A stretch of 64,000 nucleotides of DNA from Thermogemmata fonticola (lineage in GTDB: Bacteria > Planctomycetota > Planctomycetia > Gemmatales > Gemmataceae): assembly GCF_013694095.1 (NCBI RefSeq), contig NZ_JACEFB010000019.1:1-64000 (forward strand), written 5' to 3'. The notes beneath the pieces are model-generated. The model worked only from the letters and a program-made list of their open reading frames with translations, did not search any database and was not told the origin of the DNA. The position numbers and the translations under genes were made by a program. Position 1 is the first letter of the stretch; the number at the start of each line of letters is the position of its first letter. Of this stretch, positions 12,097-14,584 are shown piece by piece.

Positions 12097-12999
12097 ATGG
12101 CGATCGTGATCCTGGGCAGTTATGACGACCAGCATGCCTGTCATATGTACCACTATCTCAAGGAGCGGTATGCAGCGGATGTGGAACTGGTGGATAGCCG
12201 CTGGTTCCCCACGCAGATGCACATCCACTACGTGCCGGTGAGTCGGGAGGGTTATCTGCGATTGCCGTCGGGCCGACGCTTGGCTTTGGCCGAAGTTCAA
12301 GCGGTCTATTGGCGTTGCTGTTACGGTGCGGCTGTACCTCCGTTGCCGGACCTGGATCAACGGTACATCGCGGAATACGATGCTCAAGGACTGCTCGACA
12401 GCATTCTCAAGGACCTGCCGGCTCGCTGGGTCAATAGTTGGCAGGCTCAACAACTTCATCGCACCAAGCCGGTGCAATTGGCGCGCGTGGCGCAGTTGGG
12501 GGTGGCCATTCCTGCTACGATTGTCACCAATGATCCCGCCCAAGTGAAGCAGTTCGCAGCAGAGCATCCCCGCAGTATTTTCAAGCCAGTGCAGGGGGGC
12601 GCCCATGCCCAGCGCCTGGAACCCCGCCATATGGACGAAGAGCATCTGGCCCATCTCCGTTTGGCCCCGGTAACCCTCCAAGAGGAAGTCCCTGGCACCA
12701 ATGTTCGCGTCTTTGTGGCTGGGAAAGAGGTGCTGGCCTGTGAAATCCGCACCTCGCATCTGGATTACCGGGATGATCCCTGCCCCCTCCTGCTTGTTCA
12801 CCAGCTTCCTCAAGAGATGATCAAGCAGTGCCGTCAGATTGCTGAAGCGCTGGAGTTGCTCTGGACCGGCATCGATTTTCGCCTAACACCGGAGGGACGA
12901 TACGTCTTTCTCGAAGCTAATCCGAGTCCAATGTTTCTAGGATTCGAGCAAGCGACGGGTCTGCCGCTGTCCGAGGCCCTCGCCGCTTTACTTCTCTAA
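12097..12999 (+). CDS. ATP-grasp ligase of graspetide (omega-ester peptide) type
   Basis: This 300-residue protein matches the RimK-like ATP-grasp ligases that cyclise graspetides (MvdC, MvdD and PsnB relatives). Signs of that group: N-terminal VILGSYDDQHACHMY, a DSRWFPTQMHIHY segment near 36-48 like the D-x-x-x-FP stretch of those ligases, EVQAVYWR near 65, NDPAQVKQF near 147, an ATP-binding IFKPVQGG near 164-171, VTLQEEVPGTNVRVFVAG near 193-210, and the Mg-binding end GRYVFLEANPSPMF near 267-280. The usual product of the family is an ester or amide between Thr/Ser/Lys and Asp/Glu side chains of a precursor. The gene faces, across 263 bases, the gene for a protein with six TTxxxxEE motifs, which is the motif cyclised in plesiocin-type peptides. 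Together they form a minimal biosynthetic locus. A RimK-like glutamate ligase is the alternative, less likely given the neighbour. Confidence 0.85.
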   Translation: MAIVILGSYDDQHACHMYHYLKERYAADVELVDSRWFPTQMHIHYVPVSREGYLRLPSGRRLALAEVQAVYWRCCYGAAVPPLPDLDQRYIAEYDAQGLLDSILKDLPARWVNSWQAQQLHRTKPVQLARVAQLGVAIPATIVTNDPAQVKQFAAEHPRSIFKPVQGGAHAQRLEPRHMDEEHLAHLRLAPVTLQEEVPGTNVRVFVAGKEVLACEIRTSHLDYRDDPCPLLLVHQLPQEMIKQCRQIAEALELLWTGIDFRLTPEGRYVFLEANPSPMFLGFEQATGLPLSEALAALLL

Positions 13000-13262: not shown

Positions 13263-13817
13263 TCAACCTTTGCGAGGCGCGGGCGGGTTGCCTTCCTCGC
13301 CGAGTGCTCGAGTCGTTGGTTTGGGAGGGCCATCTTTGGGTTTCGGCGGGGGATTGCCTTCTTCACCCAAGGCCAAGGTGGTACGGGGTGGATTCCCTTC
13401 TTCGCCCAAGGCTTTGGTAGTGGGTCGGCCAGGATCTTTGGGTTTCGGCGGGGGATTGCCTTCCTCACCCAAGGCCAGGGTGGTACGGGGTGGGTTGCCT
13501 TCCTCGCCGAGGGCTAGAGTCGTGGGCTTGGGTTCCGGTTGGGGGTCCGTCGGGTTGGGTTTCGGCGGTGGGTTCCCTTCTTCCTTGAGGGCTAAGGTGG
13601 TGGGAGCAGGTGCTGGTTCCTGCTGGCCCGGCGGATGAGCGGGAGGTGGAACCGCATTGCCAGCCAACGGTAATGCCAACATTCCGGCGGACGCCGCCAA
13701 TAGGCGCTGGAGCCAATCCCGCCGGCTCACGGTTCCCTCAACGGGTCGATTCTCGCCGTTCGCCCCATCCTGACCTTCGCTTGGGGGAAGGATGATCCCA
13801 TCAAACGGATGACGCAT
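13263..13817 (-). CDS. Candidate graspetide precursor: Tat signal plus six TTxxxxEE cores
   Basis: The 184-residue product starts at the ATG at 13817, seven bases from AGGAGG (a GTG two codons upstream overlaps the ribosome site). Residues 1-30 are an acidic, Pro/Gly-containing segment. Residues 31-55 form a twin-arginine signal, SRRDWLQ followed by LLAASAGMLALPLAG and a likely cut after AGNA. The remainder is a Pro/Lys linker studded with six copies of TT-xAL-G/K-EE-GNPP: residues 73-80, 99-106, 112-119, 133-140, 146-153 and 168-175. All six keep both Thr and both Glu, while position 3 varies (L, K, R) and position 6 varies once (K). That pattern equals the TTxxxxEE core of plesiocin-group graspetides, in which the two Thr are esterified to the two Glu. 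The convergent neighbour is the matching ATP-grasp ligase. The alternative is a low-complexity exported protein with no modification. Confidence 0.82.
   Translation of the reverse strand: MRHPFDGIILPPSEGQDGANGENRPVEGTVSRRDWLQRLLAASAGMLALPLAGNAVPPPAHPPGQQEPAPAPTTLALKEEGNPPPKPNPTDPQPEPKPTTLALGEEGNPPRTTLALGEEGNPPPKPKDPGRPTTKALGEEGNPPRTTLALGEEGNPPPKPKDGPPKPTTRALGEEGNPPAPRKG
13320..13526. repeat. 102-bp tandem duplication inside the precursor gene
   Basis: Residues 98-131 and about 132-166 of the precursor are encoded by two adjacent near-copies with a 102-base (34-codon) offset. A 58-base stretch beginning at 13334 recurs at 13436 with two mismatches. Each copy contains two TTxxxxEE cores, so this duplication accounts for cores 2-5. 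Confidence 0.85.
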
Positions 13818-14584
13818 AGGCACTCCTCCTCGAACCTTCGTCGTTTTTCAGGGGTGATAGCAACGGCCCCTGTTGCTGCTCGCTGTCCGCCTCGTTCCCG
13901 CGAGTGTGGCCTCCCTGGATTTGGAGTAAATATCCAGGATTTCCCAGGGAAACCCCCAGTAGCAATGTTATGACGAACGACTCCCGGTGGCAGATTGGCC
14001 AATTCGTTCCCGTTGTTACAAAAGGGAACGCCGAGATTGGTTTCTTAAGTGAACCAATCATATTTAGAGTATGTCCTGATGCACGAGAGGGGAAGCGTAG
14101 TTTCCGCAGGCAGGGGCAGCTAGTCATCCCCGTGGAACTGAAGCTTGCGGACCAGCGCCGCTGAATTCAGATTGGATGCGGAGGGAAGTGCGGAACGCCC
14201 TCTGGTGATAAGGCCAGTAATCCAAACGTTGGGTTGGCGAAGTGGAAGAGTTCGCCTTGACAGGTTGAGGGTTTTTCCCTGATGCTGGGACACCCTGGGT
14301 AGGGCGGGGAAGAGCCGGGAGTGAAACCCGAGCTGCAGAGACGGACAGCGCTGCAAACAGCAGACCCAGCCCGGTAGCTCTTGGGCCAACGACTTCGGTC
14401 GGTGATGATCGTGGCGAACGACTTCGTTCGGTAACGGGAGAGAGAGCGAAGGTTCGCCTCAGGGGGTCTGAAACTTTCCTTCTCGGCTCAGGGTACACCT
14501 TGGCAAGCCGCCCGGTGTGGGGTGTCTGGCTATCCCCGGCGGACTTCTGGCTTGTGGGTCTCTATCAGGAAAGGAACCCGGACC
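13818..14584. other. Long intergenic region between precursor and secreted protein genes
   Basis: The 767-base divergent spacer carries no ORF I can support. It should hold the promoter of the six-core precursor (minus) and of the secreted protein at 14585 (plus). An imperfect direct repeat AACGACTTCGKTCGGT occurs at 14388-14403 and 14417-14432. The stretch around 14035-14075 is locally AT-richer. No tRNA or riboswitch-like structure was recognised. Confidence 0.45.

Follow-up and report, generated by a model that had tools for sequence, protein, structure and literature searches.

A graspetide precursor gene and its ATP-grasp partner

The window (that is, the whole 64,000-nt stretch of DNA analyzed) contains, on the minus strand at positions 13266–13817, a gene for a 184-residue graspetide precursor (ATG at 13815–13817; stop codon at 13263–13265) and, convergent with it on the plus strand at 12097–12999, a gene for a 300-residue ATP-grasp graspetide synthetase. 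A ribosome-binding site, AGGAGG, is seen in the DNA on the minus strand at 13825–13830, 7 nt upstream of the precursor ATG; a GTG start at 13823, given in the ORF listing, is disfavored because its distance to AGGAGG would be insufficient. The ATP-grasp enzyme matches TIGR04187 (ATP-grasp ribosomal peptide maturase; E 2.4e-47, under the strict 350-bit cut-off) and also TIGR04184/85, and a profile built from its relatives has as its best match PDB 7drm (E 5.2e-59), which we take to be the plesiocin synthetase PsnB. The enzyme is present in single copy: a paralog was looked for in the window genome and was not found. TTxxxxEE is the core pattern of plesiocin-type (group 2) graspetides. The cores of the window precursor meet this pattern, a graspetide-type ATP-grasp ligase is encoded with the precursor, as membership of the graspetides requires, and homologous precursors adjoin related ATP-grasp genes.

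The translated precursor consists of a short N-terminal motif, a spacer, a signal-peptide-like segment, and six cores, all on the minus strand. The motif, MRHPF (residues 1–5; 13803–13817), is an instance of MxHPF, in which M, H, P, and F are invariant. The spacer (residues 8–30; 13728–13796) differs in sequence and length among homologs. The segment at 13653–13727 translates exactly to SRRDWLQRLLAASAGMLALPLAGNA, with S as residue 31 of 184 and with twin arginine codons (residues 32–33) at 13719–13724; a signal peptidase I cut is predicted after its last residue, residue 55. The cores, which were read in the translated precursor, are TTLALKEEGNPP (core 1, 13566–13601), TTLALGEEGNPP (core 2, 13488–13523; core 3, 13449–13484; and core 5, 13347–13382), TTKALGEEGNPP (core 4, 13386–13421), and TTRALGEEGNPP (core 6, 13281–13316). 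All six have the form TTxALxEEGNPP, with Thr and Glu at fixed spacing, and are conserved in relatives. A twin-arginine signal between the N-terminus and the cores had been proposed for this precursor from the window alone, and its presence and placement are confirmed; the proposal that the N-terminal 30 residues are acidic holds only mildly (5 acidic and 2 basic residues). An Rfam search around the locus matched no RNA element, and a PDB search with the precursor or a related leader for a leader-bound structure gave chance matches only.

The segment has the features of a Tat substrate, that is, an [S/T]RRx-hydrophobic-hydrophobic motif, a hydrophobic region, and an A-x-A-type cut site, but its score is lower than the cut-off of the NCBIfam model TIGR01409 (TAT_signal_seq; a weak match, 13.3 bits for a cut-off of 16.7). 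In a scan of the whole genome for Tat-like sites, the window site ranked 16th of 38, slightly under the cut-off and amid clear Tat-type sequences such as TRREFL and SRREFL. A long n-region ahead of RR, as here, is less usual for Tat signals. The window genome has one TatC (E 1.1e-51). The cores of the window precursor are short and rich in proline; the degree of folding, and with it any requirement for Tat, would therefore depend on the inferred cross-links. We conclude that the evidence for a Tat signal from the window sequence alone is moderate, and that the strong evidence comes from comparison with relatives.

Conservation of the twin-arginine segment

For this comparison, related ATP-grasp enzymes were collected from relatives and from 84,980 species genomes, precursors were read in the flanking DNA, and unlinked precursors were recovered by a leader profile, which contains RR and is thus biased towards RR; the hits of this profile (in G024 and G488) were accepted on MxHPF and cores. 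Both had been absent from the first precursor search because their genes are distant from the ATP-grasp gene: the precursor gene L158 of G024 lies ~88 kb from it and L154 of G488 lies elsewhere in the assembly, which suggests that the ligase probably acts in trans. The resulting Tat-type set comprises 26 precursors from 24 genomes, that is, 23 genomes of Planctomycetota (Gemmataceae, Isosphaeraceae, Planctomycetaceae, and Phycisphaerae, including the cultured Singulisphaera acidiphila DSM 18658, locus L058) and one short contig labeled Rhizobium. The latter (L066; Rhizobium sp., 3.9 kb) carries a planctomycete-type ATP-grasp gene and a Tat-type precursor, and reflects mis-binning or transfer.

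In all 26 precursors, a hydrophobic stretch comes after RR, with L, F, V, or I at position +4 in every case and with S or T before RR in 17. The only invariant residues in an alignment of 21 leaders are M1, H3, P4, F5, and the RR pair. By eye, RR plus a hydrophobic segment is present in 21/21 leaders; a strict automatic rule finds it in 18, and the remaining three narrowly miss the rule's requirement for 13 uncharged residues. In 500 runs with shuffled leaders, such segments averaged 0.34 per 21 leaders and never exceeded 3. A chance origin of RR is ruled out by these shuffles and by the conservation in the alignment. The arginine codons vary between precursors, which indicates that RR is conserved as amino acids. 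Some leaders match NCBIfam Tat models, with TIGR01409 matching only 7/21 at E<=1, and TatC is present in 14 of 15 Tat-type genomes, none having been seen in the draft genome G476. The original prediction held that homologs lacking RR, or a lack of conservation of the segment between relatives, would refute it; neither was encountered.

One alternative hypothesis takes the segment for a Sec signal, or for an N-terminal membrane anchor that stays uncleaved, with incidental arginines; the cores would then be cyclized after export, never be cyclized, or remain tethered to the membrane. The hydrophobic stretch is signal-peptide-like, as this hypothesis would have it; a signal-peptidase-like site lies 19–36 residues past RR in 23 of the 26 precursors, with no clear site in the other three; and the Tat-model score of the window precursor is under the cut-off. 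However, Sec requires positive charge only, and KR, RK, or KK was never seen in place of RR before the hydrophobic segment in the Tat-type leaders. The [ST]RRx-hydrophobic-L context, the requirement of ATP-grasp enzymes for cytoplasmic ATP, and the folded domains of several homologs, which would fit Tat, likewise speak against a Sec signal or anchor, and we consider either one unlikely. The earlier interpretation of the segment as a Tat signal is supported; cyclization before export, transport by Tat, and cleavage remain inferences.

One precursor, in the single-contig genome G084 (L024, 10782–11343, plus strand), has an apparent frameshift between Tat signal and cores and represents either a broken gene or a sequencing error.

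Two export modules in related precursors

A contrast set of ~40 precursors, found in cyanobacteria and in one gammaproteobacterium and with ATP-grasp enzymes ~40–50% identical to that of the window, shares with the Tat-type set the MxHPF start and the same cores (TTxAxGEEGG). In 16 double-glycine-type precursors M, H, P, and F of MxHPF are again invariant. Between MxHPF and cores, most precursors of the contrast set have a double-glycine leader, DLxxxELExxDLxFEExLxxEEAxQVxGG, and none of the ~40 has RR plus a hydrophobic segment (0/40). Strong C39 peptidase-transporters (E<1e-30, in an ORF of >700 aa) are present in 10/10 contrast-set genomes tested vs. 1/15 Tat-type genomes, the sole exception being G039; in the window genome, the only C39 match is a weaker one, to an ORF of 218 aa. 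An NHLM-type transporter often co-occurs with group 2 graspetides (PMC13097080). No ABC-type ORF was found near the ATP-grasp gene in 22 Tat-type loci, such that the criterion for an NHLM/PCAT-type transporter is not met, and a dedicated transporter was looked for at the window locus and was not found. In the ATP-grasp tree, the cyanobacterial and gammaproteobacterial enzymes form one clade (support 100/99). The contrast in leaders, together with the distribution of C39 transporters, indicates, at the level of sequence comparison, that one export module has been exchanged for another, with MxHPF at the N-terminal side and the cores at the other side conserved. The root of the tree is uncertain, and the direction of the exchange is unsettled.

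The same comparison bears on a second alternative hypothesis, namely that RR and the hydrophobic helix are part of a ligase-binding leader and have no role in export. AlphaFold models the segment as a short helix with low confidence, and leader helices of the microviridin type bind ATP-grasp enzymes (PMC8939145). Against this, the relatives with ~40–50% identical ATP-grasp enzymes keep MxHPF and cores without the segment; the distance from HPF to RR ranges from 10 to 55 residues among Tat-type precursors; and what is kept in the segment is hydrophobicity and a cleavage-like site, not sequence. We regard this hypothesis as barely tenable, and the segment as solely a ligase leader is disfavored by the existence of relatives without it.

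The only leader element common to both the Tat-type and the double-glycine sets is MxHPF, for which reason MxHPF is probably the tag recognized by the ligase. The inference has no binding data behind it, and it agrees with the report that conserved leader motifs track ATP-grasp phylogeny and lie mostly within the first 30 residues (PMC8939145). The suggestion that the N-terminal 30 residues serve as ligase-recognition element is thus strengthened but narrowed to residues 1–5, which occur in both leader types; the remainder is variable. The two sets provide a natural comparison in which one tag and one core type are combined with two export modules, Tat and double-glycine.

Folded domains, the proposed route, and known systems

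Precursors of the Tat-type set differ in what accompanies the signal and the cores. The window precursor, L057, L058, L061, L062, L063, and L065 consist of signal, cores, and linkers only. In L117 (32–1195, minus strand), cores stand on both sides of a 3-keto-disaccharide hydrolase domain (PF06439, E 3.6e-47); in L159 (1918–3858, plus strand; genome G039), the MxHPF and Tat leader is followed by degenerate cores and then by a WD40 beta-propeller; in L059, L060, and L158, cores precede a helical domain; and L064, L068, L069, L070, and L154 have in common a domain placed after the signal and ahead of the cores. In the predicted structure of L068, this shared domain has pLDDT ~90, and signal and cores are disordered. 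The domain resembles a ferredoxin-like fold in doubled form and is weakly similar to subtilisin propeptides and to Inhibitor_I9; the likeness to subtilisin propeptides (best Z 8.2) is suggestive only. The top Foldseek matches of the L068 domain extend over two domains, at high rmsd, and are not taken here as evidence of homology. Genome G039 carries three precursors, L159, L060, and L157.

Precursors with such domains plausibly fold before export, which would fit Tat better than Sec. They also raise the possibility that the system does not primarily make a peptide natural product, but cross-links inhibitor-like or stabilizing loops onto larger Tat-exported surface proteins, of which the window precursor would be a reduced case. 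Cores that flank a hydrolase domain, follow a confidently predicted domain (the L068 group), or precede a propeller or helical domain favor this possibility, and the precursors with signal, cores, and linkers only count against it. We entertain it tentatively, leaning slightly the other way, and note that it is compatible with, not opposed to, the modular-precursor route set out below. In its broadest form, on which we judge the evidence evenly balanced, graspetide cross-linking in Planctomycetota would modify whole Tat-exported proteins (candidates being the hydrolase, beta-propeller, and inhibitor-like domains), which would be marked by the tag, stapled in the cytoplasm at their repeat tails, and exported folded, with signal peptidase I as leader peptidase and with no dedicated transporter. 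Macrocyclization of full-size proteins has so far been a matter of engineering, by means of a promiscuous synthetase (PMC12291112); the folded domains of these precursors suggest that it also occurs naturally.

With a Tat signal as export module, the simplest reading, which is an inference, is that the chain is cross-linked in the cytoplasm, exported once shaped, and freed by signal peptidase I. Under this proposal, the ATP-grasp ligase would bind MxHPF in the cytoplasm and would join Thr to Glu side chains in each core, such that the cores become rigid hairpins like those of plesiocin; Tat would export the cross-linked chain, with which Sec would be expected to cope poorly; and signal peptidase I would cleave after ...AGNA, such that a single cut would shed both ligase tag and export signal and leave a mature chain of ~129 residues with six cross-linked cores. 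The Tat signal would substitute for the usual peptidase-transporter route of the cyanobacterial relatives. We consider it likely that the precursor is a modular graspetide precursor that is cross-linked in the cytoplasm, exported by Tat, and released by signal peptidase I; its parts are read directly, and ligase recognition, the linkages, and the order of events are inferred. Plesiocin is a hairpin-repeat, multivalent inhibitor of serine proteases, the potency of which rises with the number of cyclized motifs (PMC13097080). By analogy with plesiocin, from which the activity is inferred, the product probably acts in the periplasm or at the cell surface as a multivalent inhibitor of serine proteases.

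The system resembles that of plesiocin and other group 2 graspetides (Plesiocystis pacifica; ligase PsnB) in having one ATP-grasp enzyme, repeated cores, and 7drm as closest solved ATP-grasp structure, but differs from it in that the leader is MxHPF plus a Tat signal. The cyanobacterial MxHPF-DLxxxELE...GG precursors (L075, L080, L089, and L093) likewise have the MxHPF start, cores, and a related ATP-grasp enzyme, but with a double-glycine leader for a C39 peptidase-transporter and no Tat signal. Microviridins (MdnB/MdnC, MvdC/MvdD) share ATP-grasp omega-ester chemistry and a leader motif, PFFARFL, near the N-terminus, but have two ligases, a lactam in addition to lactones, and a different core, and their ATP-grasp enzymes match only distantly. 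LFIEDL is a leader motif, and a literature search on it returned no relevant paper. Tat-exported cofactor enzymes, too, have a twin-arginine signal and mature in the cytoplasm before export; in the window family, by contrast, maturation is presumed to be ligase cross-linking of repeats, and the ligase tag stands upstream of the signal.

Graspetides and Tat signals are each known. The original prediction knew of no described graspetide with a Tat leader, and the open-access literature searched contained no paper on graspetides or microviridins together with twin-arginine signals and no natural Tat-led RiPP precursor; overlap with a recent survey of >20,000 graspetides (PMC13097080) is unchecked. 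For engineered lanthipeptides, the Tat route has been the subject of speculation only (PMC5686179). If the proposed route is correct, a natural RiPP precursor takes the route of pre-folded proteins. The enzyme that removes graspetide leaders is unknown, a stated gap (PMC8939145); a general export signal just before the cores predicts a specific answer, namely that the precursor leaves by Tat and is then cut by signal peptidase I.

Long plesiocin-like TTMALGEEG arrays occur in other Planctomycetota (L017, 7043–8122, plus strand; L016, 3283–3876, minus strand; genomes G240 and G279). The only readable leader of these arrays (G240) is KKKLFIEELEQR, without a Tat signal, and the ATP-grasp is 38–39% identical.
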